Virus record (IMG/VR): IMGVR_UViG_3300032213_001070
Location: 1 to 64,000 of that record
Strand: one strand, 5' to 3'
DNA length: 64,000 nt
Origin: a virus
In this document: positions 1,547-58,033 of the stretch, piece after piece
Position numbering within the stretch: the stretch's first letter is position 1
Layout: each line of letters starts with the position of its first letter
Program-made: the position numbers and the translations under genes
The notes under the pieces: model-generated
Seen by the model: the letters and a program-made list of their open reading frames with translations, nothing else
Database searches by the model: none
Told to the model about the DNA's origin: nothing

Positions 1547-1915
1547 ATGAAAACTAAAATGAAAAAGTACCAGGATGGTGGACCAGCTGATGCAATGCAA
1601 AAAGCAATGGGTCAGAAACCTACATCTACTAAAAAAACAATGAAGTATGTAAAAAAGCATGGTTCAGGTTATATTCCACCTGCTGGTAAGAAAATGCAAT
1701 CAGGTGGTACTAGTGGTGGATACCCTACTACAGGTGGTGGTAAAAAAATGAAAACTGGTGGAATGGTAAATCCTAATGCTAAATTACAAGCTGGTAAAAA
1801 AGCTGGTAGTAAAGGTGTTATGCATAGTTTGAGTGCTAAGGCAGTTGTACAAAAGAAAGCTAAAGGTAGATCAGGTGGTACTAATAAATCAGTAGCAAGA
1901 CCTAAAAAAGGATAA
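1547..1915 (+). CDS. Small Lys/Gly-rich protein with repeated KxxGG motifs, 122 aa
   Basis: This is a very basic, low-complexity protein with no predicted fold. It carries three copies of a short Gly-Gly motif: KKYQDGG near residues 6-12, KKMQSGG in the middle and KKMKTGG shortly after. The same type of motif recurs in at least seven other genes of this window, including the large cargo-type proteins. The gene is packed 12 bases after the previous stop and overlaps the next start by one base (TAATG), so translation is probably coupled. Composition suggests nucleic-acid binding or an intrinsically disordered internal virion peptide. No enzymatic role is visible. Confidence 0.8.
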   Translation: MKTKMKKYQDGGPADAMQKAMGQKPTSTKKTMKYVKKHGSGYIPPAGKKMQSGGTSGGYPTTGGGKKMKTGGMVNPNAKLQAGKKAGSKGVMHSLSAKAVVQKKAKGRSGGTNKSVARPKKG

Positions 1916-2253
1916 TGCCTAAAGATGCTTGTTATAGTAAAGTAAAAGCACAGTATGCTGTGTTTCCTTCTGCTAGGGCTTCTCAAGCTATTGCCAAATG
2001 CCGTAAAGGTAAAGGCACTGTTAGAAAGACTGAGAAAGGAACAGAGCTTAAAAGATGGCAAGCCGAGAAATGGCAAGATACAAAATCTGGAAAACCTTGT
2101 GGTGCCGGTGGTTCTAATGAATACTGCCGGCCTACCAAGAGGGTTTCTAGTAAGACACCTAAAACTAAATATGAACTAACTCCTTCTAAACTAGCTGCTA
2201 AGAAAGCTGAGAAGTCTAAAGTAGGTATGGGAAGAAGAGTTAAAAAAGTATAA
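1915..2253 (+). CDS. Small basic protein of the DUF5872-like family, 112 aa
   Basis: The N-terminus reads ACYSKVKAQYAVFPSARASQ and continues into AIAKCRK. It is followed by a segment with LKRWQAEKWQD and then a CGAGGSNEYCRPTKRVS block. This order (Cys-Tyr-x-Lys-Val-Lys, Pro-Ser-Ala, Lys-Cys-Arg, then Trp..Lys-Trp and Tyr-x-Pro-Thr) is what I remember of the DUF5872 family found in phages and some large viruses; the family number is from memory. The function is unknown. The tail is Lys-rich. The start overlaps the previous stop (TAATG), which supports translational coupling in the small-protein operon. Confidence 0.85.
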   Translation: MPKDACYSKVKAQYAVFPSARASQAIAKCRKGKGTVRKTEKGTELKRWQAEKWQDTKSGKPCGAGGSNEYCRPTKRVSSKTPKTKYELTPSKLAAKKAEKSKVGMGRRVKKV

Positions 2254-2255
2254 CC

Positions 2256-2498
2256 ATGGCAATTAAAAAAACAACAACTAAAAAATCAACACCAGCTAAG
2301 AAAAGTTCTTCAGTTGGTATTTCCATTTTTGGTGGGGGTAAAGCAGAACAAAGAAAATGGGAAATTGAATCTGCTATGTCTACATTACAAAGAGCTTCTG
2401 AGATTCAGAAGAATACAAAGCTTATGAATGATGTAAAGAAAATGGCTGCTGAAAAGGCAAAAGAATTTAACAGCATTGCTGCTGGTAAAAAGATTTAA
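2256..2498 (+). CDS. Small basic hypothetical protein, 80 aa
   Basis: The N-terminal 20 residues are Lys/Thr/Ser-rich, like a histone tail (KKTTTKKSTPAKKSSS). They lead into a short glycine patch, SIFGGGKAE, and then a single amphipathic, probably coiled-coil helix covering residues about 33-75. The layout of a basic tail plus one helix would suit a DNA- or capsid-lining peptide. I do not recognise a family. It lies three bases after the preceding stop, within the same run of small proteins. Confidence 0.7.
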   Translation: MAIKKTTTKKSTPAKKSSSVGISIFGGGKAEQRKWEIESAMSTLQRASEIQKNTKLMNDVKKMAAEKAKEFNSIAAGKKI

Positions 2499-2523
2499 TT
2501 TGTAATATTTAAAACTATATAAA

Positions 2524-2853
2524 ATGCAATCTCCAAAAAAAGGTACTGTTAAAAAAACAGTTAAGAAAGAACCACAGTCTGATAGAAAACTAAAAGATCA
2601 AGCAAGCCGTGCTATAAAAGACTTTAAAAAAGGATTTACAGATTCTTATAAACCAATTGTTGAAGGTATAAAAATGGCTGTACCCTCTAAGAGCACTAGA
2701 GAAGGTTTTGTTAAAGGTCTTAATACTGCAGTTCCAAAGAGCAAGTATATTAGAAAAGCTATTGAAGGTACACCTGAATACAAAGTAGCCAAAGGTATTA
2801 AAAAAGCTGCCGGATTTAAAAAAGGTGGAATGATTAAAACTAAGAAAAAATAA
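2524..2853 (+). CDS. Small Lys-rich protein ending in a KKGGMIKTKKK tail, 109 aa
   Basis: The protein is strongly basic throughout, with predicted short helices between residues 20 and 95 and a Lys-rich N-terminus (SPKKGTVKKTVKKE). The C-terminus, FKKGGMIKTKKK, carries the Gly-Gly motif shared with neighbouring genes. No enzymatic motif or membrane segment is present. Its composition resembles histone H1-like or phage internal proteins. I do not recognise a named family. Confidence 0.75.
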   Translation: MQSPKKGTVKKTVKKEPQSDRKLKDQASRAIKDFKKGFTDSYKPIVEGIKMAVPSKSTREGFVKGLNTAVPKSKYIRKAIEGTPEYKVAKGIKKAAGFKKGGMIKTKKK

Positions 2854-2855
2854 TC

Positions 2856-3146
2856 ATGACACAGGCAAAGGCTAAGAAAGTAAAAGTTACTGCCGGTGGT
2901 GAAAAGCATGTAGTATATAAAAAGACTACTAAGAAAGGTGAGGGAAAGGTTGGCCACATAATGGTCAACCATCCTACCAAAGACAAAGGTCAGTGGGATA
3001 CAATAGATCTTACTGCAAAAGGTAGAGCTAAGACTGTTAAACAAGGAGTAGCCGCTACAAAGAAATGGCATAAGGATAACCCGGATTATAAATATAAAGG
3101 TAAAGGTAATGGCAAAGTCACCAGCATGGCAAAGAAAAGAAGGTAA
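2856..3146 (+). CDS. Small conserved phage protein with a GHIMVNHPTKDKGQWDTIDL core, 96 aa
   Basis: A Lys-rich N-terminus (residues 1-30) precedes a conserved-looking core around residues 32-75 with GHIMVNHPTKDKGQWDTIDL, then an AKTVKQGVAATKKWHKDNP helix and a basic tail. I recall this core from uncultured Bacteroidota phages, always without function. The last 38 bases overlap the next gene in a different frame, an unusually long overlap for this operon. The next gene's start at 3109 is supported by its conserved N-terminus, so both frames appear to be used. Confidence 0.75.
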   Translation: MTQAKAKKVKVTAGGEKHVVYKKTTKKGEGKVGHIMVNHPTKDKGQWDTIDLTAKGRAKTVKQGVAATKKWHKDNPDYKYKGKGNGKVTSMAKKRR

Positions 3147-3381
3147 GAATCCAGAAGGAGGTCTTAATGCTAAAGGAGTAGCAAGTTATAGAGCAGCTAA
3201 TCCAGGTAGTAAACTTCAGACAGCTGTAACTACTAAACCTTCTAAGTTAAAACCTGGAAGTAAAGATGCTAAGAGACGCAAGAGCTTCTGTAGCAGAATG
3301 TCTGGGATGCCTGGACCTATGAAAGATGAAAAAGGAAGACCTACAAGAAAAGCTCTTTCTTTAAGAAAATGGAACTGTTAA
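3109..3381 (+). CDS. Small basic phage protein (DUF6321-like), 90 aa
   Basis: The protein reads SPAWQRKEGKNPEGGLNAKG near the N-terminus. The C-terminal half has RRKSFCSRMSGMPGPMKDEK and ends with RKALSLRKWNC. This combination (NPxGGLNAKG, then SFCxRMxGMPGPMKDxxGRPTRKALxLRKWNC) is a recurrent phage family that I associate with DUF6321, from memory. Two Cys residues and many Arg/Lys residues suggest nucleic-acid or virion binding, but no function is established. The gene overlaps the end of the previous one by 38 bases, and no alternative downstream start would preserve the conserved N-terminal block. Confidence 0.8.
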   Translation: MAKSPAWQRKEGKNPEGGLNAKGVASYRAANPGSKLQTAVTTKPSKLKPGSKDAKRRKSFCSRMSGMPGPMKDEKGRPTRKALSLRKWNC

Positions 3382-3391
3382 ATTATATATA

Positions 3392-3787
3392 ATGAAAAAG
3401 GTAGTTAAAAAGTCAGCAACTAAAAAAGCTTTACCAAAAGCACAATTAGGTCTTATTACTAAAACAATTAAAGGAGCTGCTAAAGGAGCTGTCAAAGGTG
3501 GTAAGAGTGCACTTAAAGCTGCTAGAAAAGAAGCAAGTGCTGCTAAATCAAAAGGATTTGGTGAGAGTGGGCAGTATGCAAGAGCAAGTGATATGCGTAA
3601 AAGTGATAACTATAGAGCTGGAAGAGGTTATTCAGATCCAGTAGGTGATAGAGATGATGCTAACAAAGTTAAATTAGTAGGTATGGCTGCAATAGGAACA
3701 GCAGCAGGAGCCGGAATGTTAGCTAACAGAAAAAGCGGACCTTCAAAAAAATCAACTACTAATAAGAAAACTAAAAAAAATAAATAA
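3392..3787 (+). CDS. Small H1-like basic protein with an LPKAQLG motif, 131 aa
   Basis: This Lys/Ala-rich protein has the motif LPKAQLG at residues 14-20, one of eight copies of an [LI]xxAQxG-type motif found in five proteins of this window. Residues about 25-55 (AAKGAVKGGKSALKAARKEA) resemble the Lys/Ala-rich tails of histone H1. A short hydrophobic stretch around residues 93-110 (KLVGMAAIGTAAGAGMLANR) could touch a membrane or pack as a helix. A Lys/Thr tail follows. I infer an internal virion or DNA-condensing role from composition only. Confidence 0.75.
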   Translation: MKKVVKKSATKKALPKAQLGLITKTIKGAAKGAVKGGKSALKAARKEASAAKSKGFGESGQYARASDMRKSDNYRAGRGYSDPVGDRDDANKVKLVGMAAIGTAAGAGMLANRKSGPSKKSTTNKKTKKNK

Positions 3788-3788
3788 A

Positions 3789-4451
3789 ATGAAAACTTGT
3801 AAATCAGGATGTGGAGGCAAAATGAAAGCCGGAGGATCTGTAAAGAAAATAAAGAAAATGGCTCATGGTGGTCAAGCTCTAAATAAAGCTAAAGGATTTG
3901 CCCCTGCACAAAAAGGCGGTGACAATGTATCTAAACAAATTTATGGTATACCTAATGCTGGTACTACTGGTCCAAATAGAACTGCTGGATATGACTATAA
4001 AAAAGGTGGCTCAGTTAAAAAATTAAAGAAAGCACAAAACGGTGCTGAAGTTGATCTTGATGCTCCACCATTTAAAACTAGAAGTTCTAAAATTGGTGTT
4101 GGTCTTATAGGTTCTGGAATAGCCGGTATGGCAACAAAAGCTATTGCAGATAAAGTAAAAGCTAGAAAAGCTGCTAAAAAAGCTTCTGAAGAAAAAAAGA
4201 AAAATGAAACTACTAAAGCTAAATTTGGTGCAGAAGTAAAAGTGCAAAGAGGTTATCCAGGTAAAATCAGATCTTCTGAAGCTCAAGGATACACAGCTGT
4301 TGGTAAAAGAGAGCCAGGAAGAACTAAGTTTCCTAAACTTGCTAAAGGTGGTTTTCCAGATCTAACAGGAGATGGTAAAGTAACTAAAGCGGATGTTCTT
4401 AAAGGTAGAGGTGTTATCAAGAAAAAAGGTGGTGCAGTTAAAAAGAAATAA
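3789..4451 (+). CDS. Basic multi-motif protein with GG motifs, KKAQNG motif and an EF-hand-like loop, 220 aa
   Basis: The N-terminus has a small Cys pair (CKSGCGG) followed by several Gly-Gly motifs (KMKAGGS, KMAHGGQ, YKKGGS). LKKAQNG is at residues 79-85. A short Gly/Ala hydrophobic stretch (VGLIGSGIAGMATKAIA) lies near residue 105. Near the C-terminus, after KLAKGGF, is DLTGDGKVTKAD, which matches the spacing of an EF-hand or dockerin calcium loop (Asp at 1, 5 and 12, Gly at 6, Val at 8). The protein ends with KKKGGAVKKK. It therefore collects all the dispersed motifs of this locus. I infer a scaffold-like or packaged internal protein; no enzyme motif is present. Confidence 0.8.
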   Translation: MKTCKSGCGGKMKAGGSVKKIKKMAHGGQALNKAKGFAPAQKGGDNVSKQIYGIPNAGTTGPNRTAGYDYKKGGSVKKLKKAQNGAEVDLDAPPFKTRSSKIGVGLIGSGIAGMATKAIADKVKARKAAKKASEEKKKNETTKAKFGAEVKVQRGYPGKIRSSEAQGYTAVGKREPGRTKFPKLAKGGFPDLTGDGKVTKADVLKGRGVIKKKGGAVKKK

Positions 4452-4453
4452 TC

Positions 4454-4618
4454 ATGGCAACTAAAAAGAAGTCAGATAAAAACTGGATACAGAAAGCTAC
4501 AGCCTCTATTAAACGTAGAGGCACTGCAGGTAAGTGTACTCCAATAACTAAACCTGGTTGCACAGGAAAAGCTAAGGCTCTTGCTAAAACATTTAAGAAG
4601 ATTGCTAAAAATAGATAA
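4454..4618 (+). CDS. Small phage protein with CTPxTKPGCTG motif, 54 aa
   Basis: The gene starts with ATG at 4454 and ends with TAA at 4616-4618, two bases before the next start. The product begins MATKKKSDKNWIQKA, continues with IKRRGTAGKCTPITKPGCTG and ends AKALAKTFKKIAKNR. The pattern of a Trp-containing start, a CTP...C block and KALAxTFKK is one I recall from many uncultured phages as a conserved small virion-cluster protein of unknown function. The two Cys residues may bind metal or form a disulfide. High Lys/Arg content links it to the surrounding cluster. Confidence 0.8.
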   Translation: MATKKKSDKNWIQKATASIKRRGTAGKCTPITKPGCTGKAKALAKTFKKIAKNR

Positions 4619-4620
4619 TA

Positions 4621-5319
4621 ATGCTTAATAGTACTATTACCATAAAAGTTAAAGAACGTCTCAATAAGTTAGACAGCCAAGACTATGACAACATAGAATG
4701 CTGGACTATTGTTGAGGCTTTCAACAAGGCTCAGGTTGAGTGGGCTAGAAGACAGCTGCATGGTATTAACCAAGTAAGAGAAGGTGATGAGCAGTCTACC
4801 CGTAGAAAAGATGACTTACAAATCTTACTAGTTACAGAAACATTAGCTGCAGTTGATAAAGAGTACTATTACCGTGGTGTTATTCCACAGGATTATCTAC
4901 AGTGGAAAAGAGTTGACATCTTTGCTAACAAAGAATGCTGTGATAAAAGAAGAATGACTGTATATTTAGCAGAAGAAGGAAATCTTAATCAACTTCTCAG
5001 AGATAAAGCTAAACAACCTAACTTTGAATGGGCAGAAACATTTGCTACACTTAAAGGTGGTAATGTTAATGTATATACTAATGGTGAGTTTGATATAAAT
5101 AACATTGATCTTATTTATTATAGGCAACCTATTAAGATACAGATTCAAGGATGTGTAGATCCTTACACCAATATTACATCTACTGCAAATGTAGAATGTG
5201 AGTTTAAAGATGATATAATAGAATTAATAATTGATGAGGCTGTAAGTATTATAGCTGGAGATATTGAGTCAGGAAACCAATTCTCTAGAGGTACGGATAC
5301 AGCTGAACGTAACAACTAA
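4621..5319 (+). CDS. Conserved structural protein, probable neck/connector component, 232 aa
   Basis: The N-terminal half is helical (residues 5-95) and contains LNKLDSQDYDNIECWTIVEA, then VEWARRQLHG. The second half is beta-rich, with EFDINNIDLIYYRQPI and CVDPYT, and ends in an acidic helix with FKDDIIELIIDEAVSIIAGD. I recognise the pattern as a family conserved in uncultured Bacteroidota phages near the capsid genes. The helical-then-beta layout and the position, between head and tail genes, suit a head-tail connector or adaptor. That role is inferred; no experimental assignment is known to me. Confidence 0.7.
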   Translation: MLNSTITIKVKERLNKLDSQDYDNIECWTIVEAFNKAQVEWARRQLHGINQVREGDEQSTRRKDDLQILLVTETLAAVDKEYYYRGVIPQDYLQWKRVDIFANKECCDKRRMTVYLAEEGNLNQLLRDKAKQPNFEWAETFATLKGGNVNVYTNGEFDINNIDLIYYRQPIKIQIQGCVDPYTNITSTANVECEFKDDIIELIIDEAVSIIAGDIESGNQFSRGTDTAERNN

Positions 5320-5324
5320 TAATA

Positions 5325-5777
5325 ATGGAAAAACCTAGAATGTTAAAAAGAGATACTGCAGCAAATGCCTCATACTCAAGTGCTCCAGCAGGAGGTTCTG
5401 TAGATACTATGACAGCAGCATGTGTATCAGAACTAATGAATGCTGCAACAAGTATTCACAAGCTACATTTAAAAGTAACTGGTACTGGATCATATGCAGC
5501 ACATAAAGCTCTTAATGATTTATATGATGCATTACCTGGACATGCTGATGATTTAGCAGAAGGATATCAAGGAGCAGCAGAGAAGTTACTTACTTATTCA
5601 GAAGTAGCTCCAAGAGTACTTAATTCAGTAGATGAAGCTTTAGGATATATTAGAGAGATGGCAACTATGGTATCTGGTTTACAAGCTAAGATGCCATACT
5701 CAGAATTAGTAAATGATCTAGATACTATTAAGTCTACACTTAATTCTGCTAAGTATAAATTACTTTTCTTAAAATAA
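5325..5777 (+). CDS. Dps/ferritin-like protein, 150 aa
   Basis: The region of residues 25-95 reads as the first helices of a Dps-type four-helix bundle. It has LHLKVTGTGSYAAHKALNDL followed by YDALPGHADDLAEGYQG, matching the Dps pattern HW...G..F...H..ldelYdel.d..D.iAER. His48, His60, Asp75 and Glu79 have the same spacing as the ferroxidase residues His51, His63, Asp78 and Glu82 that I remember for E. coli Dps; the position of Dps Asp67 is Asn64 here. Phage members may be catalogued as DUF5856. Two further helices follow to residue 150. The gene sits in the virion block five bases after the neck-type gene, so the protein may be packaged. Possible roles are iron or oxidant handling, or DNA compaction. 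The fold is a confident guess; activity is not known. Confidence 0.75.
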   Translation: MEKPRMLKRDTAANASYSSAPAGGSVDTMTAACVSELMNAATSIHKLHLKVTGTGSYAAHKALNDLYDALPGHADDLAEGYQGAAEKLLTYSEVAPRVLNSVDEALGYIREMATMVSGLQAKMPYSELVNDLDTIKSTLNSAKYKLLFLK

Positions 5778-5807
5778 TTTGGATTATTGAAAAACTTTTA
5801 CTATATT

Positions 5808-5819
5808 ATAGTATATTTA
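5808..5819 (+). promoter_or_regulatory. Putative phage promoter ATAGTATATTTA
   Basis: The motif is shared with sites at 10607, 13323 and 23274. It lies 27 bases before the start at 5844 in the only sizeable gap (66 bases) since base 518, and the gene it precedes is closed by its own terminator. That suggests a separately transcribed unit. Confidence 0.45.
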
Positions 5820-5843
5820 TTTATTAACTAAAACAAAAAAACA

Positions 5844-7382
5844 ATGAGTTATTTTAATCATGCTTTTCAAAAGACGTTTGTTGGAACCAATGGTTTTGTA
5901 AACACGCTTTCTGGAAAATTAGGCTCACCTGGTAATATACTTACTGGTGGTCAATTTGCATTTGTAGATGCAAAAACTTGGACTCTACAAACAGCTGCTC
6001 CTGGAGGATGTTGTCCTTTAGTTCTTGCTGCAGGTTCAATCTATCAAAGAGATAAGATTGGTCCTTTCCATGGTGGATACTTAGAGACTAACAAATCTAA
6101 AGTAATCAATCCTAAATATGTTAGCAAATTCTACCGTGTAGATCCATGTTTACCACAAAATGAAGTAGTTCATTTAGGTAATACAGCTTACACAGATGAC
6201 GTTGCTTTAACATTGGCTATTGATACTGCTGGAGCAAATCTTGTTGATGGTGTTTACTCTGATGTTGAATTATGTCCTGCAGGAGCTGCTCCAGGTGGAC
6301 AAAATGCTTATGCTAATATTACTGTAGTAGATGGTGAAGTTACATTTGTTGAATTAACAAATGGTGGTTCAGGATTTACAACAGGTGATCTTATTCTTCC
6401 ATGTGTTGATTTACCAAATACAGGTGAAGATACACAACCTGAGTTTGAAGTAACTGCTGGTGTAGGTGCTAACTGTTGTAAAAAATTCTATTGTGGTGAA
6501 ACATATACATTACGTGTTGATGTTAAAGGTTCTCCTGCATTAAGATTACTTAACCACAACTCTTATATCATTGCTTCTGCATATGGTGGATGTTGTCCAG
6601 AAGGATCTATTGCTCCAGTAGAAATTGATTCAACATTAATTTTTATTCAATGGGCTACTGCAATTGTAAGATATCCTGTTATATCTCCATTCTTGTTACC
6701 AATTGTTATTGACCAAACTGGTACTCCTTGGTATGCTCCAGGAACAGATGCTGCTTTCTTAGCTGATGAGGGTGTTGATACTTGGGATCACTATGTATCT
6801 CCAGGATATATTGAAGATGCATGTGCTGGTTTAGTATTAGTAGGTGCTTATGTAGATACTAAGTTTGAAAACTGTACATTCCAATTGACTGACTTCTATG
6901 AAGTTGAGCCAGTTAGAATCTATGCATCTGAAGTTGATCTTAATGGTGATCCATGTTTGTTTGACGGAGTATGTGTTATCAAAGAATGTGAAGGAAGACA
7001 AGCTATGGGATTAGGTGAATCAGTTGCACGTGATGTAATCTTATCTGAGCAATACAGACAAAACTTCTTCCACAGTGATTTCAGGATTCGTGAGATTACA
7101 CAAGGATACAGTGTGTTTGATTACATTAACCGTAACAACTTGTATACAAGATATTACTTGTTACATAATGTTCCACGCTTCAATAACCCAACTAGTACAT
7201 TTGATAATGATCAATACTTGTTAGAGATCATCACTGATGGTATAGAAAGTGATTTTCAAGGGTTTGTTAACACTTGGTTAGGAAGCTGCGGATCACCTTG
7301 TGTTACTTTGGAAAATGAATCTTGTGTTCAAGATGCATGTTGTGCAATTTATCCTTATCCAGGACAAGTTTGTCCAGACTAA
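5844..7382 (+). CDS. Cys-rich, beta-rich virion protein, 512 aa
   Basis: I recognise this as a family seen in uncultured Bacteroidota phages, without assigned function. The N-terminus has FVGTNGFVNTLSGKLGSPGN, then IGPFHGGYLETNKSKVINPK near residue 75. Adjacent cysteine pairs recur (GGCCPL, ANCCKK, GGCCPEG, DACCAIYP), and a Gly/Thr-rich segment around residues 150-200 resembles a beta-sandwich insertion. The C-terminus is CGSPCVTL...CVQDACC. There is no signal peptide. The gene has its own putative promoter and a strong terminator, so it is probably expressed at high level alone. An abundant appendage, head-fibre or tail-tube-like protein is plausible. Confidence 0.7.
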   Translation: MSYFNHAFQKTFVGTNGFVNTLSGKLGSPGNILTGGQFAFVDAKTWTLQTAAPGGCCPLVLAAGSIYQRDKIGPFHGGYLETNKSKVINPKYVSKFYRVDPCLPQNEVVHLGNTAYTDDVALTLAIDTAGANLVDGVYSDVELCPAGAAPGGQNAYANITVVDGEVTFVELTNGGSGFTTGDLILPCVDLPNTGEDTQPEFEVTAGVGANCCKKFYCGETYTLRVDVKGSPALRLLNHNSYIIASAYGGCCPEGSIAPVEIDSTLIFIQWATAIVRYPVISPFLLPIVIDQTGTPWYAPGTDAAFLADEGVDTWDHYVSPGYIEDACAGLVLVGAYVDTKFENCTFQLTDFYEVEPVRIYASEVDLNGDPCLFDGVCVIKECEGRQAMGLGESVARDVILSEQYRQNFFHSDFRIREITQGYSVFDYINRNNLYTRYYLLHNVPRFNNPTSTFDNDQYLLEIITDGIESDFQGFVNTWLGSCGSPCVTLENESCVQDACCAIYPYPGQVCPD

Positions 7383-7403
7383 TCTTATAGACTAAAAACA
7401 ACT

Positions 7404-7438
7404 AAGGGGAGCTGAGTTTCATACTCCTCCCCTTTTTT
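7404..7438 (+). terminator. Rho-independent terminator after the 512-aa Cys-rich protein
   Basis: AAGGGGAG (7404-7411) pairs with CTCCCCTT (7427-7434). Inner GAGT and ACTC extend the stem, and six Ts follow. The T run ends only about 11 bases before the next start at 7450, which leaves no room for a promoter between them. Confidence 0.88.
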
Positions 7439-7449
7439 ATTATTTCACT

Positions 7450-13223: not shown

Positions 13224-13262
13224 AGAAGTTGCAGGTTTGTTGGTTTCTGTAACAACAAAGGC

Positions 13263-13295
13263 AAAGCCCTCACACTTGTGGGGGTTTTGTTTTTT
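13263..13295 (+). terminator. Rho-independent terminator closing the appendage gene cluster
   Basis: Bases AAAGCCCTCAC (13263-13273) pair with GTGGGGGTTTT (13278-13288) with two wobble pairs around a 4-base loop, and a T-rich tail follows. It separates the Cys-rich appendage genes from the neck/tail genes. Confidence 0.88.
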
Positions 13296-13322
13296 ACTTA
13301 CATTTGTTAAAGTCATTTATTT

Positions 13323-13335: not shown

Positions 13336-13917
13336 ATGAAGGAATTTAAGAAACCAAATGTTAAAGCACCAAGGTTCAGACCTAGTGTGTATAACTTACT
13401 TAATAAAGAGTTCTTTGAAAGTTTTAGAGAAAGATACCCAAAGTATAAAGATCTTGATGATGATCAGTTAAAAAACATAATTAAACTATTTAATCAGATC
13501 ATGTGGCAAAATGTAATTGACAATAGAGACGGAGTCCAAATACCAGAACAAATTGGTTGGTTATTTATAGGATCATGTCCAGCAAGTAAAAAGAATAATA
13601 TAGATTTTGCTAAGTCAAAACAATATGGAGTAACTGTTACTAATAAGAATTGGGCTACAGATGGTAAACTAGCTAAAATATTCTTTTCAAACTTTGCACC
13701 AAAACATAAGATAAGAAATAGAGAGTTTTGGATGTTTGTAGCTTGTAGAGATTTTAAGAGAGCTGTTGCAAAGTCATATCCAGAAAATTGGCAAATGTAT
13801 ATTGCAGCAGATCCAAAGAAGCAAGCTAGATTACTTTATACAAAATCTGAATACAAGGATATAAAAAGAAAAGAACAAGCTAAAACTTTAGAAACATATA
13901 ATGAATTTGAACTATGA
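13336..13917 (+). CDS. Conserved crAss-like phage protein, 193 aa
   Basis: The sequence includes FNQIMWQNVIDNRDGVQIPE, then IGWLFIGSCPASKKNNIDFA, KNWATDGKLAKIFFSNFAPK, NREFWMFVACRDFKRAVAKS and YPENWQMYI. I recall this combination as a small protein conserved in crAss-like phages just upstream of the ring-type proteins. Its function has not been assigned to my knowledge. It is basic and globular with no membrane segment. It overlaps the next gene by 4 bases (ATGA), so the two are probably made in fixed ratio. A small tail or neck component, or an assembly factor, is plausible. Confidence 0.7.
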   Translation: MKEFKKPNVKAPRFRPSVYNLLNKEFFESFRERYPKYKDLDDDQLKNIIKLFNQIMWQNVIDNRDGVQIPEQIGWLFIGSCPASKKNNIDFAKSKQYGVTVTNKNWATDGKLAKIFFSNFAPKHKIRNREFWMFVACRDFKRAVAKSYPENWQMYIAADPKKQARLLYTKSEYKDIKRKEQAKTLETYNEFEL

Positions 13918-14579
13918 CAACAATTGGTGAAGCTATATCAAGAGTTAGAAATACACTAAAAGCTGTTAAGGAAGATCCATTCTTAACAGATAGGACTATA
14001 TATTTCTCTCTTCAAAAATATGCTCAAACTCTTATTAAGAGAGAAGATAATCAATTCAGACTTATGAAGATGAGTCAGATCTTTAAAGTATTACCTTATG
14101 TAGAACTTATTGATGTTGATAGAGTAGAAGCTGGTTGTATTGGAGTATATTCAGAATGTTATTTTAAAAGATCTAAAGAAAAACTACCTACCATACTTAA
14201 TGGTATGTTTGGTCCTATTATCCGTACAGTATCTTCTATAGATGGATCTATAGAGATGTTTAGAACAGATCCGGGTACTTGGGTTTCTATAACTAAATCA
14301 ACTACATTTAAATATAACAAAAGACCATATTTCTGGTTTATAAATGGATATCTCTACTGTCCTAATGTAGACTGGGATGCAATAAGAGTAGAAGCAATAT
14401 TTGAAGGAGTATTAGATACATGTGATACAAAAGATCAATGTTTAATAAGACAAGATGATCCTTTTGTTTTACCAGAATATTTATTCTCAGAAGTAGAGCA
14501 ATTTGTAGTAAAAGAATTAACTATGTCTATGTCAGTTCCAACAGATGGTCCTGATGATAGTCAAAACGCACTTAGATAA
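13914..14579 (+). CDS. Ring/tail-stabilisation-type protein, 221 aa
   Basis: An N-terminal helical pair reads TTIGEAISRVRNTLKAVKED and then FLTDRTIYFSLQKYAQTLIK. A beta-rich domain follows (residues 60-190) with YVELIDVDRVEAGCIGVYSE and YNKRPYFWFINGYLYCPNVD. A helical C-terminus ends the protein. Two helices followed by a beta domain, placed directly before the next ring-type protein and the muzzle-like gene, resemble the ring or tail-stabilisation proteins of crAss-like and P22-like phages. The assignment rests on order and general fold. Its start overlaps the previous stop by four bases and its stop overlaps the next start by one. Confidence 0.65.
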   Translation: MTTIGEAISRVRNTLKAVKEDPFLTDRTIYFSLQKYAQTLIKREDNQFRLMKMSQIFKVLPYVELIDVDRVEAGCIGVYSECYFKRSKEKLPTILNGMFGPIIRTVSSIDGSIEMFRTDPGTWVSITKSTTFKYNKRPYFWFINGYLYCPNVDWDAIRVEAIFEGVLDTCDTKDQCLIRQDDPFVLPEYLFSEVEQFVVKELTMSMSVPTDGPDDSQNALR

Positions 14580-23300: not shown

Positions 23301-26054
23301 ATGGCAAAAGTAAGAATACGCAAAGCCGGTCCAGGAGAGAAACCTGGATATTATAATAAAACAGCAATGTTCTTGAAAAAGGCACAGGACGGAATGCAAG
23401 TAGAATCATATGCTCCTACTAGCCAAGAAGAAATGCTCCAAGCTTATTATATGTATGCATATGGTCAACTAGTTAATGATGTTGAACCAGATAATGTGTA
23501 TAATGAATTAGTTGACAAAGGTCTACCGCAACAAATTGCAGTTAGACTTATTGACTCTCTCATGGATAGATTAACAGAAGAAGGAGAAATCAGTCCAGAG
23601 TATAAACAAAACAAAGAGGCACAAGCACAAGCAGAAGCAAAACAAGAACAACCTGCAGAAGAGACATCAGAAGAAGAAACACCTGCAGAAGCAGAAGATG
23701 AGTCTATGTATGAAGAAGATCAAGAGATGGCTGACTTAGAAGAAGGCTATGCTGATGATAGATCATACATGCAAGATGGAGGTGAGCAAGAGGAAGAAGA
23801 TGTTGAATATAGTGAAGATGGTGCATCAGCTGTAATAGATCAGTATGATGAAGTAAAGCAAGGATCACAAGATGAAGTTACAAACATTGATGAGTTGATT
23901 GCAAATACTCCAGGTATACAACCTGGTTTAAACTTTCCTGGTTTAGCAGAATATGTTCCAGATTATCAAGAGATAGAGTGGCAACCAATTGATGCTTTAG
24001 AAACTTCTCAAGCTGAAGTACCGCAAGAAATGAAGCATGGTGGTGCTCATAATAAAAGAAACTTTGTAAAAAATGTAATGTCTCTTCTAAAAAAACAAGA
24101 TGGTGGTGAAGGAGAAGAGGAGCAAAAAGAAGATAAATCATTAGGCAAAGGTAATCCTATGGATACTATAACTGATGATGTAAAAAAACATAAGAACAAT
24201 TTCCTAGATGCTATTAAGACTAAAGCTACTAAAGTTAAGACAGAAGAGATGTATGATAAGATGATGAAGTCAAATGACCCATCATTACAGCAAATGGCAA
24301 TGCAAGGAGAACAGCCTGAAGAACAACCATATCAAATGGGTGGAATGACAGGTGGTGAAGATCCATTATACAAATTTTTTGGTGGTGGTGAAGAAGATCC
24401 TGATTACTATGAAGCAGACTTTTTACCAGAAGCTCAGTATGGAGCTAATGTTCCAAATGCAACTGAGATTAATGACTATATTAAAAAAGTCATTGAACAA
24501 AATAAAAAAAATAACAAGGGTAATAAATCAACAGTAGTACCTAAGGCTACAATTAAATATGTACCTAGATATCATACTGGACCTGGATCATTCCGTAATG
24601 TTATGCTACCTTGGAATCCTATATTTGGTAACAGATATATGTTACAAGGTAGTCCGTACATGTTAGGATCACGTATGCCATATATGGATCCATTAACTGG
24701 AATGAAACCTGTTGCTAGACACGTCAGCAAAAGAGGAATCTTAGGTAGACCAAAACAATGGACAGATATATACTCTGTAGATGCTATGGGTAAATTACCT
24801 AATATGGATCCTAGTGTATTTAAATATTTAGGATTATCTAATAACTCAACTCCTAATAAGGTTTTACCAACAAGTGGTAGGTCAGATACTTCAGGACTTA
24901 CTCTTCCTTCTAAAACAGCTATAAAAGCTGGTGAAAGAGAAATGGCTAGAAATGCTAGAAGATTAGCTAGAAATCCAGAGTTACTTGAAGTTGGACCTCC
25001 TGCAGCTAAAACAGTTCCTGATAACTCTGAGACAGAAAAATTCTTACATCAAAGAAAACAACAAGGATATGTTTTAGATGAGAATGGTAACTGGATAAAG
25101 ATAGGTACTCCAAAAATGGAAATCAGAAAACCAGAGAGAGAATCTAAACTAGCAGGAGTTGATAGAATTAATTATGAGAAAACAATTAGAGAATCTGGTT
25201 CTAGAGCTGATCAGGAAAGACCAATTGGTAATAGAGCATATGAGGAAAGAAACAGAAGAATATCTCCTTCAAAAGAAAAACTGAATGAGCTCTATAGTAG
25301 AGATGTAATGGAAGAGCAAAGATATGGAGGAATACATAGATTTATCCCAAAAGCAAATAATGGTTTAACTATTAATAATCCTAATCTTCCACAGCCAGGT
25401 CCAGCTAATCCTGATCTTGCTGTAGGAAATCAAGCAGGAATGTTAACTATGCAACCACAACAACAAGCATGGTCATCATTAACACCTAATGTACCACAAC
25501 AACAATCTAATCAACCTATATCATTACCAACCAGAAGTTCTAAAGAAGTTGGTCAACAATTAATGGACAGTAGTAAAAAGAAACTAGAAGGTGAAGCTGA
25601 CATGGATCCTAAAGGTAACTTAGTAGGAGTTGACTATAAAAGAAAACGTAACTTTGATGGTGAAGCAGCAGTAAACATATTTAATGCAGGTATGAGAGGT
25701 GTAACAGGATTCTTAAATAGAAGAGATGATAAGAGAAAAGAAGCACAAATGTATGATAATATGACATCTGACAATCTTTATGCAGCACAAGCTACTAAAC
25801 ACCGTGGTGACTGGGTAGACTTAGGTTCTCAAATGGGTCAATTCCGTTTTGATCAAATGGGTCAAGACAGAAGCGGTTTCTCATCATATGGTAAATATGG
25901 TGGTTACATGCAGGATGGTGGAGAAATGGACTATGCTCCTGAAGAAGATTACCAAGATTTTACACCTAGTTATGAAGAGGGTGATGAAGTTTATATGACT
26001 GAGGATGACATTCAACAATTTATGGCCAATGGTGGTCAAATAGAATATATATAA
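23301..26054 (+). CDS. Putative packaged (cargo) protein with three [LI]xxAQxG-type motifs, 917 aa
   Basis: LKKAQDG lies at residues 25-31, LPEAQYG at 375-381 and IPKANNG at 682-688. Gly-Gly motifs recur between them (YMQDGGE, MKHGGAH, KKQDGGE, YQMGGM, YMQDGGE). Residues about 95-170 are extremely Glu/Gln-rich, probably disordered. The C-terminus reads VYMTEDDIQQFMANGGQIEYI and matches the LTxxEIxxYxxGGYIVE motif of the preceding gene. A central segment with PKQWTDIYSVDAMGKLPN looks folded. No catalytic motif is seen. Strong charge and repeated short motifs suggest a largely flexible internal virion protein, processed or anchored at the motifs. Confidence 0.7.
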   Translation: MAKVRIRKAGPGEKPGYYNKTAMFLKKAQDGMQVESYAPTSQEEMLQAYYMYAYGQLVNDVEPDNVYNELVDKGLPQQIAVRLIDSLMDRLTEEGEISPEYKQNKEAQAQAEAKQEQPAEETSEEETPAEAEDESMYEEDQEMADLEEGYADDRSYMQDGGEQEEEDVEYSEDGASAVIDQYDEVKQGSQDEVTNIDELIANTPGIQPGLNFPGLAEYVPDYQEIEWQPIDALETSQAEVPQEMKHGGAHNKRNFVKNVMSLLKKQDGGEGEEEQKEDKSLGKGNPMDTITDDVKKHKNNFLDAIKTKATKVKTEEMYDKMMKSNDPSLQQMAMQGEQPEEQPYQMGGMTGGEDPLYKFFGGGEEDPDYYEADFLPEAQYGANVPNATEINDYIKKVIEQNKKNNKGNKSTVVPKATIKYVPRYHTGPGSFRNVMLPWNPIFGNRYMLQGSPYMLGSRMPYMDPLTGMKPVARHVSKRGILGRPKQWTDIYSVDAMGKLPNMDPSVFKYLGLSNNSTPNKVLPTSGRSDTSGLTLPSKTAIKAGEREMARNARRLARNPELLEVGPPAAKTVPDNSETEKFLHQRKQQGYVLDENGNWIKIGTPKMEIRKPERESKLAGVDRINYEKTIRESGSRADQERPIGNRAYEERNRRISPSKEKLNELYSRDVMEEQRYGGIHRFIPKANNGLTINNPNLPQPGPANPDLAVGNQAGMLTMQPQQQAWSSLTPNVPQQQSNQPISLPTRSSKEVGQQLMDSSKKKLEGEADMDPKGNLVGVDYKRKRNFDGEAAVNIFNAGMRGVTGFLNRRDDKRKEAQMYDNMTSDNLYAAQATKHRGDWVDLGSQMGQFRFDQMGQDRSGFSSYGKYGGYMQDGGEMDYAPEEDYQDFTPSYEEGDEVYMTEDDIQQFMANGGQIEYI

Positions 26055-54430: not shown

Positions 54431-54817
54431 TTAATCTACTTTAATAAATTTACTGATATCAGGTCTGAAGTATCCCGGACCTTTTAATATTTTTCCATCT
54501 TCTCTAAGAATAGGCTTACCATCTTCACCTAATTTACTCATATTACTTTCTTGTATTTCATCAAATACATCTTGTATAATATACTGCATACCATGTTTAA
54601 GTATAGTTCCGCATAATATATATAGCTTATCACCTAGTGCATCTGCTATATCTACTAGTGAGTTTTTGTGACATGCTTCAAGATACTCATCATTCTCTTC
54701 AGCCATCAGTCTATGTCTTAGTACTGCTTCATCTTTCTCAAGATTCTGTGGCCATTGACCATCTATTTGATTAAAGGCTCTATGAAATTCTGCTACTGCT
54801 TTTAATTGTTTTTCCAT
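54431..54817 (-). CDS. MazG-like nucleotide pyrophosphohydrolase, 128 aa
   Basis: The all-alpha NTP-PPase fold is indicated by the metal-binding pattern AEENDEYLEA (E40, E41, E44) and DIADALGDKLY (D56, D59, D63). The C-terminal block has VFDEIQESNMSKLGEDGKPI and then GYFRPDI, typical of phage-encoded members of this group. Such enzymes split a nucleoside triphosphate or related nucleotide into the monophosphate and pyrophosphate. In phages they are thought to clean nucleotide pools or lower alarmone levels; the substrate is not known here. The gene lies after the DUF932-like gene and a terminator-like hairpin, and shares its end with a 57-aa gene. Confidence 0.88.
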   Translation of the reverse strand: MEKQLKAVAEFHRAFNQIDGQWPQNLEKDEAVLRHRLMAEENDEYLEACHKNSLVDIADALGDKLYILCGTILKHGMQYIIQDVFDEIQESNMSKLGEDGKPILREDGKILKGPGYFRPDISKFIKVD

Positions 54818-56128: not shown

Positions 56129-58033
56129 TTAAAATAATTTTAATTGATTTCTATTTGGCTCTAACCCAGCTATCTCTTTCTTTATCTTATCTAGATAATA
56201 GCTTAGATTAATCTTGTAATCATCAAATGGTTTTTCTTCATGGTCAATATAAATAGTCTGCATCCATTGGCCGGATTCTATTTGAGTTTCTCTACCATCA
56301 AACAAGTTAGTCTTAATAACCTTACAGCCGGAGTTAGATACATAATATCTAATAGTATCCTGCAGTTTTGTCTTCTCATACTCACCATTAACAATAGCAT
56401 GTGAATAAAATTCCCAGTCACCTTTTATCTTTTTACCACCACAATAATCAAATATGTTTTGGTTTTGTTTTAGATAATCTTCAGGCTCAATACCATCTAC
56501 AAAATATGCATGTAGAGCTTTAGGAACTATCAGGAAACTTTTATTCTTATGCAACGCCAGGTTTTCATACTCAAATCTACCTTTACATTTAGATTTACCA
56601 TCTTCAGTAACTGCTATGTAGTTATTTACATCACCCAATACAAACTTAGAATACTTATCATGTTCCAGTTGTAGATTAGTAATCCTTTCCCATTCTGCAC
56701 ATATCTCCATATACTTATCTACTTTGTCTCTTGGAATCAGAGTTTCCAAACCATCTGTATTCTGAGCTAACGGTATAGATCCTGGTATACCTTCAGTAAG
56801 CATTTCATACAGTAGAGTTAGACTCAACTGACCATTAATTGTAATCCTCATGGTAAACTCTGGATCATATAGAAAACTATTCTCATCATTACTGAGTCCA
56901 TAAGTTGAGTTAAGAATAATCTTATATACATAATTCTTAGGATCCTTCTTAGGTATCTTCTTTCTTTCTTCAAAAAACCACTCATATAGTTCACAAAAAT
57001 CTGCTTGTGGTAAATGTCCCGGAGCCCATCCATTTCTAATAGCTAGATTAGGATAGAAACTAGTAACATCTGAAGTCATGATGATCATATCATCAGTAGA
57101 CTCATACACTCTACTAGTTCTAGCACCATGGATACCACCAAGACCATAATCAGTTTTAACTCCTTTATACTGCACTGAATACTTAAATCCTCCTTTAGTC
57201 TCACCTGGATAAATAACAACTTCCCTAAATTTCTTTAACAGGTTCTGAAATGTAGCTGTCTTAAATTCTATATAAGGTAGTATGATATCATTAACAACAA
57301 TCTGAGGTCTATGAGTTCTCATCTGTCTCAGTTCATATTTCTTTATACCAGTCTGTTTACTCAAGAAATGTAGAAACAATTCTTTAGATATCCGTGGCTC
57401 AGAGGCTGAGAACAAATCAATATTATATTCATCTGTCAAAGCTCTCCTAAGATTAATCTGCTCTTTACTGAGCTGCATAATCTGTTTAGTAGACCTAACA
57501 TCATTAATACAGTAATTGATAATATCCGGAATCTGTTCCGCTACTACTTCAGTAGTATGATGAATAGGCATATCTATGATATTCTTCCAATCCATTGTAT
57601 ACTGAATCCATTTCAAGCTAGATCTCTTAGCTGGATTATCCCAGTGGTTAAGTTTAAATACATCTACCTGTCTGATGTGTAAATCTCTAGGACTAAATTC
57701 TAAGAACTCTCCATCACTCTGTCTTCTGATTACATCTTGTGCTTTAGAATATATGAACCTAGCAATCTCATCACCAGTCATATCAAGTAAGTCATGACCT
57801 TTAGCCAAGCAGTGTTCAGTGATTTGACTGTCAAATCCTAAACCATTAAAGCTAATATGCCATTCATTATTATTTACATTATGCATTAAGAAAGTTAAGA
57901 AAGGAACAATGTCATTTCTAGACTCATGCATTACAAATATCTCTCTGTCTTCAGATTTTATATCTTCAAAGACTGCAATGAAACAATTAGATAATGTTTC
58001 ATAATCCATTACATAGTGTGTTTTCATACCCAC
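56129..58033 (-). CDS. Family B DNA polymerase with 3'-5' exonuclease domain, 634 aa
   Basis: The exonuclease motifs are MDYET (D10, E12), NGLGFDSQI near residue 63 and YCINDVRST near residue 180. The polymerase motifs are DVTSFYPNL with D322 (motif A) and KIILNSTYGLS with K371, N375, Y378 and G379 (motif B). Motif C reads QNTDGLET around N425-T426-D427, where the first Asp of the usual DTD is Asn. At 634 residues the enzyme is short, with no room for large accessory domains. It has the compact size expected for phage replicative PolB and matches PolB use in some crAss-like groups. A terminator lies upstream, so it has a separate transcript start or depends on read-through. Confidence 0.9.
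   Translation of the reverse strand: MGMKTHYVMDYETLSNCFIAVFEDIKSEDREIFVMHESRNDIVPFLTFLMHNVNNNEWHISFNGLGFDSQITEHCLAKGHDLLDMTGDEIARFIYSKAQDVIRRQSDGEFLEFSPRDLHIRQVDVFKLNHWDNPAKRSSLKWIQYTMDWKNIIDMPIHHTTEVVAEQIPDIINYCINDVRSTKQIMQLSKEQINLRRALTDEYNIDLFSASEPRISKELFLHFLSKQTGIKKYELRQMRTHRPQIVVNDIILPYIEFKTATFQNLLKKFREVVIYPGETKGGFKYSVQYKGVKTDYGLGGIHGARTSRVYESTDDMIIMTSDVTSFYPNLAIRNGWAPGHLPQADFCELYEWFFEERKKIPKKDPKNYVYKIILNSTYGLSNDENSFLYDPEFTMRITINGQLSLTLLYEMLTEGIPGSIPLAQNTDGLETLIPRDKVDKYMEICAEWERITNLQLEHDKYSKFVLGDVNNYIAVTEDGKSKCKGRFEYENLALHKNKSFLIVPKALHAYFVDGIEPEDYLKQNQNIFDYCGGKKIKGDWEFYSHAIVNGEYEKTKLQDTIRYYVSNSGCKVIKTNLFDGRETQIESGQWMQTIYIDHEEKPFDDYKINLSYYLDKIKKEIAGLEPNRNQLKLF

Follow-up and report, generated by a model that had tools for sequence, protein, structure and literature searches.

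A predicted Dps-type miniferritin of the DUF5856 family encoded directly behind a tail-ring gene in a crAss-like phage

A small gene for a Dps/ferritin-like protein lies between a tail-ring gene and a probable appendage gene in the phage DNA studied here, which raises two questions: whether its product is an iron-handling enzyme and whether it belongs to the phage particle. The stretch analyzed, which we call the window, covers the leading 64 kb of a virus record of 84,214 bases that is itself incomplete. We take the phage to be of freshwater origin, an assumption based on IMG/VR sample types. The gene and its surroundings are as follows.

4621 to 5319, plus strand: ring protein of the tail barrel, homologous to gp34 (ring protein 4/5) of PhicrAss001, E = 1.4e-5 over nearly the full length
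5325 to 5777, plus strand: Dps-like DUF5856 protein of 150 aa, assigned by DUF5856, PHROG 858, AlphaFold2, and Foldseek
5778 to 5843, plus strand: intergenic stretch with a promoter-like AT-rich element, conserved in most relatives, preceding the appendage gene
5844 to 7382, plus strand: 512-aa Cys-rich conserved protein, a probable appendage, found after the Dps-like gene in 77 of 80 relatives

The open reading frame at 5325-5777 has an ATG start, 150 codons, and no internal stops, and the strand opposite it is full of stops; it is a genuine, conserved gene. By gene content, the phage is crAss-like: a gp34-like ring gene lies near head genes, with a match to the major-head-protein PHROG at 16-423, at the left edge of the window. 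Since gp34 makes up tail-barrel rings 4 and 5 in PhicrAss001 (PMC10172136), the upstream gene, which the earlier note had called neck type, can be specified as that of a crassvirus tail-barrel ring protein. Ring or neck PHROG matches were obtained at 4621-5319 and at 13914-14579. Giant open reading frames follow downstream, and a 1,791-aa protein of the window is akin to the csAssE-Sib muzzle and to large virion proteins of Cellulophaga phages. Sequence searches of the PDB gave no matches for this large putative muzzle protein or for the appendage gene product. The replication genes begin at 54 kb and are encoded on the minus strand, with DNA polymerase at 56129-58033, so that the Dps-like gene is far from replication functions in the window, as the earlier note had said; this does not hold in other phages that carry the gene.

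Several further features of the window were recorded. A MazG-type nucleotide pyrophosphohydrolase gene (54431-54817) opens the minus-strand replication block. G+C-rich hairpins with T runs, resembling intrinsic terminators, lie between genes at about 430-475, 7395-7440, and 13260-13300. Eight short Lys-rich open reading frames run from 1547 to 4451, in the interval that separates the ring gene from a 338-aa gene; within this run, 1915-2253 matches DUF5872 (E = 5e-13) and 3109-3381 matches DUF6321 (E = 6.7e-25). A basic open reading frame of 54 codons (4454-4618) fills the gap ahead of the ring gene. The motifs K-A-Q-(D/N/L)-G or K-Y-Q-D-G recur at 1547-1915, 3392-3787, 3789-4451, and 23301-26054, mostly near the N termini of probable virion proteins, where they may be a processing or targeting signal.

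We compared the protein with family profiles. It belongs to Pfam DUF5856 (PF19174), with 57.6 bits against a curated cutoff of 34.6 (E = 2.7e-15), and it matches PHROG 858, annotated as "starvation-inducible transcriptional regulator" (E = 2.7e-21). All 49 aligned members matched the DUF5856/PHROG 858 profile. There are at least 187 close relatives in IMG/VR, and wider scans confirmed at least 574 to 592 relatives. Among those with names are rI.-1 of T4-like phages, g280 of phiR1-37, Kuttervirus proteins, and proteins of podophage-type genomes in which a portal gene lies directly upstream. The protein stayed below the curated cutoffs of the ferritin and Dps profiles, scoring 15.4 bits with Pfam Ferritin (PF00210; cutoff, 24.5) and 12.6 bits with the NCBIfam Dps profile (cutoff, 114). 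When the DUF5856 family profile was searched against the PDB, Dps/NAP was the top match (E = 2e-4), and HMM-HMM comparison with nine Dps sequences gave an E value of 3.2e-6 and kept each of the five ligand columns in register. One contig (IMGVR_UViG_3300042526_000402, 135,860 bases, loci L056 and L080) carries two differing copies of the gene near its ends, and these are either paralogous blocks or the product of a chimeric contig.

The predicted structure agrees with this assignment. An AlphaFold2 monomer model, built with 49 sequences, reached a mean pLDDT of 89.9, with a core at about 97 and low confidence for residues 1 to 22. It contains helices at 26-48, 56-85, 102-122, and 126-148, which form a four-helix bundle. 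The earlier note had named a predicted structure lacking such a bundle as grounds for rejecting its proposal, and the model gave no such grounds. The short BC helix of Dps is absent from the model, in which residues 86 to 101 are nonhelical. The best 50 Foldseek matches in the PDB were nearly all Dps, with a probability of 0.99 to 1.00, TM scores of at most 0.67, and E values of 0.005 to 0.03; at a TM of about 0.65, the similarity to the Dps fold is moderate. Against viral models, Foldseek found phage DUF5856-like proteins and entries called Dps, some of them crAss-like, and the BFVD matches included Dps entries of the gut crAss-like phages cr106_1, cr108_1, and ctDAq1. The Dps/ferritin-like identity first proposed from the sequence is thus supported by fold, ligand set, and family membership.

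The predicted metal site accounts for most of the likeness to Dps. The earlier note had pointed out that H48, H60, D75, and E79 keep the spacing of the Dps ferroxidase residues and that Asn64 replaces Dps Asp67. The codons concerned, together with three that it had passed over (the invariant H45 and Y67 and the helix-D residue D133), are listed here.

5457 to 5459, plus strand: H45, invariant, equivalent to HP-NAP His22
5466 to 5468, plus strand: H48, predicted ferroxidase ligand, equivalent to E. coli Dps H51 and HP-NAP His25
5502 to 5504, plus strand: H60, predicted ferroxidase ligand, equivalent to Dps H63 and HP-NAP His37
5514 to 5516, plus strand: N64, at the Dps Asp67 position; the family column holds Q, N, G, E, and R
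5523 to 5525, plus strand: Y67, invariant, equivalent to HP-NAP Tyr44, at the site
5547 to 5549, plus strand: D75, predicted ferroxidase ligand, equivalent to Dps D78 and HP-NAP Asp52
5559 to 5561, plus strand: E79, predicted ferroxidase ligand, equivalent to Dps E82 and HP-NAP Glu56
5721 to 5723, plus strand: D133, start of helix D, 98% conserved in 46 sequences

Both observations held. HMM-HMM pairing aligned H48, H60, N64, D75, and E79 with H51, H63, D67, D78, and E82 of E. coli Dps, and the spacing of 12, 4, 11, and 4 residues is the same in the two proteins. In 46 family sequences at less than 70% identity, H45, H48, H60, A62, Y67, D75, E79, and G83 were 100% conserved. The core ferroxidase ligands His, His, Asp, and Glu are therefore present in Dps register and invariant. 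HP-NAP aligns without gaps through the ferroxidase motif, which pairs H45, H48, H60, Y67, D75, and E79 with His22, His25, His37, Tyr44, Asp52, and Glu56, all six of which have been placed at the ferroxidase center (PMC4192664). Whether the residues meet at one site was judged by alignment with Dps, which puts them in the same register. His22 of HP-NAP forms a salt bridge to Asp52 in the apo form (PMC4192664), and a role of H45 as a new, phage-only ligand was discarded given this HP-NAP counterpart.

The pattern H-x11-H-x14-D-x3-E occurred in 43 of 200,000 shuffles of the protein and in 3 of 13,905 unrelated open reading frames from the fetched loci. It is present in 251 of 252 family members, although in those whose A-B loop has three residues fewer, the first His matched is the H45 equivalent; the stricter HxxH-x11-H form is found in 83 of the 252. 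A chance motif is ruled out by the conservation and the shuffles. Many non-crAss members have the shorter A-B loop, and for this reason the exact Dps spacing from H48 to H60 is restricted to the crAss-type group and a small number of other members.

Not all of the Dps site is retained. There is no carboxylate at Dps position 67, and since position 64 varies across the family, its loss is a family trait; a specific functional swap to Asn64 is excluded by the same variation. An Asn at this position can coexist with activity, judging by Nostoc Dps4, which has Asn67-Asp68 (N64-D65 in the phage protein) and still oxidizes Fe2+ with O2 although Asn67 is not a ligand (PMC6675082). Nostoc Dps4, TeDpsA, and TlDps1, the Dps proteins with a His-type ferroxidase center, likewise have no carboxylate ligand at position 67. 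However, they have His78 where the phage protein has the canonical Asp75, which rules out assignment to that class (the His164 position was not aligned). The Trp that follows the first ligand in Dps is also lost; L49 takes its place, in a family column of 80% Leu, 11% Phe, and 9% Trp. HP-NAP thus differs from the phage protein in having Glu41, Trp26, and a BC helix where the phage protein has Asn64, Leu49, and, in the model, no BC helix. E. coli Dps shares the four-helix bundle and the ligand spacing, but its D67, K48, and W52 are not matched, and identity is about 18%. Counting against the Dps reading, then, are the losses at Asp67 and Trp, the absent BC helix, and the missed curated cutoffs. 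Even so, a Dps-type fold with a metal site is very likely, and iron oxidation is likely.

We then considered what the position of the gene implies. The ring gene ends 5 nt before the Dps-like gene, which leaves no room for a promoter, and it lies directly upstream in all 80 close relatives, with gaps of 2 to 17 nt. Downstream, the gap is 41 to 73 nt among relatives and contains a conserved AT-rich element. Given the short upstream gap and the conserved element behind the gene, the ring and Dps-like genes probably form one transcript, with late expression. The simple form of the late-promoter-like element after the gene occurs at chance frequency in the window.

The place of the gene is less constant across the family, so the idea that it sits in a virion block stands here, next to the ring gene, and does not extend to the family as a whole. 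In 82 loci, mostly of one lineage and picked by similarity, the family gene comes after portal or connector genes, and at locus L103 it follows the portal. Elsewhere its neighbors are RusA, HNH, methyltransferase/ParB, or terminase genes; in T4-like phages it lies beside the rI lysis gene and in Kuttervirus beside primase. Relatives in Kuttervirus, T4-like, and small phages often have non-virion genes around them. A general rule that the gene always occurs in virion blocks is excluded by these neighbors, and because they vary, position alone is no proof of a virion role. FpV4 and a Leptolyngbya phage have related ring genes and lack the family gene, and phi17:2 and csAssE-Sib gave no matches to the family.

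Direct evidence on virions comes from distant relatives. Sajous1, a Vi01-like Kuttervirus, encodes gp217, which was detected by LC-MS/MS with 10 spectra in CsCl-purified virions; Phyre2 predicted a ferritin with 96.7% confidence, and the authors proposed iron-mediated entry (PMC10892097). They also warned that low spectral counts may be contaminants, and these 10 spectra could be such a case (PMC10892097). We found that gp217 is a DUF5856 protein (E = 1.3e-28) with the same ligand set as the window protein, although it is 117 aa long, has no tail, and is encoded two genes from a tail-completion gene, just before the primase region. In addition, the note to g280 in its phiR1-37 record reads "phage structural protein." For the window's phage, the proposed virion association thus draws its support from homology, and we consider it somewhat the likelier alternative.

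The rI.-1 protein of T4-like phages, g280, and the Kuttervirus proteins share the invariant residues of the window protein as members of the same family. The crAss-type proteins differ from them in an N-terminal tail of about 25 to 28 residues with an LKR motif, in a longer A-B loop of Dps length, and in the location of the gene behind the ring gene. Dps-type proteins are also encoded by Gratiaviridae, Lactobacillus, and Streptomyces phages; those were found by canonical Dps searches, whereas DUF5856 is a more divergent branch. As the family occurs in hundreds of phages and one relative was found in virions, the protein is probably a phage-borne iron-handling protein and not wholly new.

Taken together, the reading that we favor, with reasonable though far from complete confidence, is that of a late-expressed miniferritin. 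The product of the open reading frame would be a Dps-type miniferritin, divergent and of the DUF5856 lineage, made late from a transcript shared with the tail-ring gene. We infer that it would assemble as a Dps-like dimer and probably as a shell of 12 subunits. At the two-fold interface, one subunit would contribute H48 and H60 and its partner D75 and E79 to a di-metal site, with H45 and Y67 as a second shell. Presumably the metal is iron: Fe2+ would be bound and oxidized, which would remove iron and peroxide and spare the phage DNA from damage. A fraction of the protein would probably be carried by the virion, inside or on its surface. The best single purpose that can be proposed is protection against Fenton chemistry, for the DNA or for the particle under assembly. 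A stronger and broader version seems to us rather doubtful: in it, the virions of crAss-like phages and of many further tailed phages would contain an active Dps-superfamily ferroxidase, located beside the tail barrel or portal, that clears iron and peroxide from the surroundings of the genome in packaging, in storage, or on entry.

The miniferritin could instead work only inside the cell, controlling iron and peroxide and protecting replicating phage DNA with no functional part in the virion; its place behind the ring gene would then reflect late expression. Neighbors with roles in DNA metabolism, packaging, or lysis in many lineages (RusA, methyltransferase/ParB, HNH, rI, and primase) fit this account, and phage Dps and Mn-catalase have been argued to act during infection (PMC8008677). 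The detection of gp217 in purified Sajous1 virions (PMC10892097), the structural-protein note on g280, and the strict linkage to the ring gene in 80 of 80 relatives speak against it, and we regard it as unlikely but a serious competitor. Reuse of the Dps fold in an accessory of the neck, portal, or head, where the metal site, possibly for zinc, would only stabilize the assembly, is improbable. It would suit the location directly after the ring gene here, after portal or connector genes in podophage-type loci, and after the portal in L103; ring proteins form 12-fold rings (PMC10172136), and the loss of Asp67 and Trp would be tolerated. However, FpV4, phi17:2, and csAssE-Sib do without a family match, text searches of the PhicrAss001 structure paper found no such component, and full conservation of four ligands plus the His22 and Tyr44 equivalents exceeds what a structural site needs.

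Still less probable is a nucleoid protein whose basic N-terminal tail binds and compacts DNA in place of an HU/IHF protein. The LKR-type tail is conserved in most of 81 close relatives, with a net charge of +1 to +3, and Lys-rich open reading frames adjoin the locus. HU/IHF was not detected in the window's genome or in five of six relatives, and FpV4, which has no Dps-like gene, has one; the record searched is incomplete, at 84 kb, which weakens this point. Moreover, the short tail is no more than weakly basic, in most of the rest of the family it is missing or acidic, and DNA compaction does not need a conserved metal site. Finally, a "ferrojan horse," in which tail-borne iron exploits host iron uptake for entry, was proposed for Sajous1 in the same family, but tonB and feoB mutants showed no clear loss of infection by Vi01-like phages (PMC10892097), which had already weakened the idea, and with a tail-tip location unsupported here, we give it very little credence.

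The finding is sound but has precedents: DUF5856 members had already received Dps-like names automatically, and a published study had proposed that virions contain a ferritin of this family. What is added is that an explicit connection is drawn, in hundreds of phages, between DUF5856 and the ferroxidase residues of Dps, that Sajous1 gp217 is identified as a member of the family, and that in this group of crAss-like phages the gene consistently follows the tail-ring gene. DUF5856, formally listed as a domain of unknown function, spans T4 relatives, jumbo phages, and crAss-like phages. The link to Dps through the fold and the invariant ferroxidase set gives all of DUF5856 a testable function. 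The mass spectrometry match in virions, for its part, means that cultivable phages of the laboratory, T4-like ones for instance, can be used to ask directly whether phage particles contain a functional iron enzyme. If a virion ferroxidase is indeed present, the phage particle would carry its own antioxidant enzyme.
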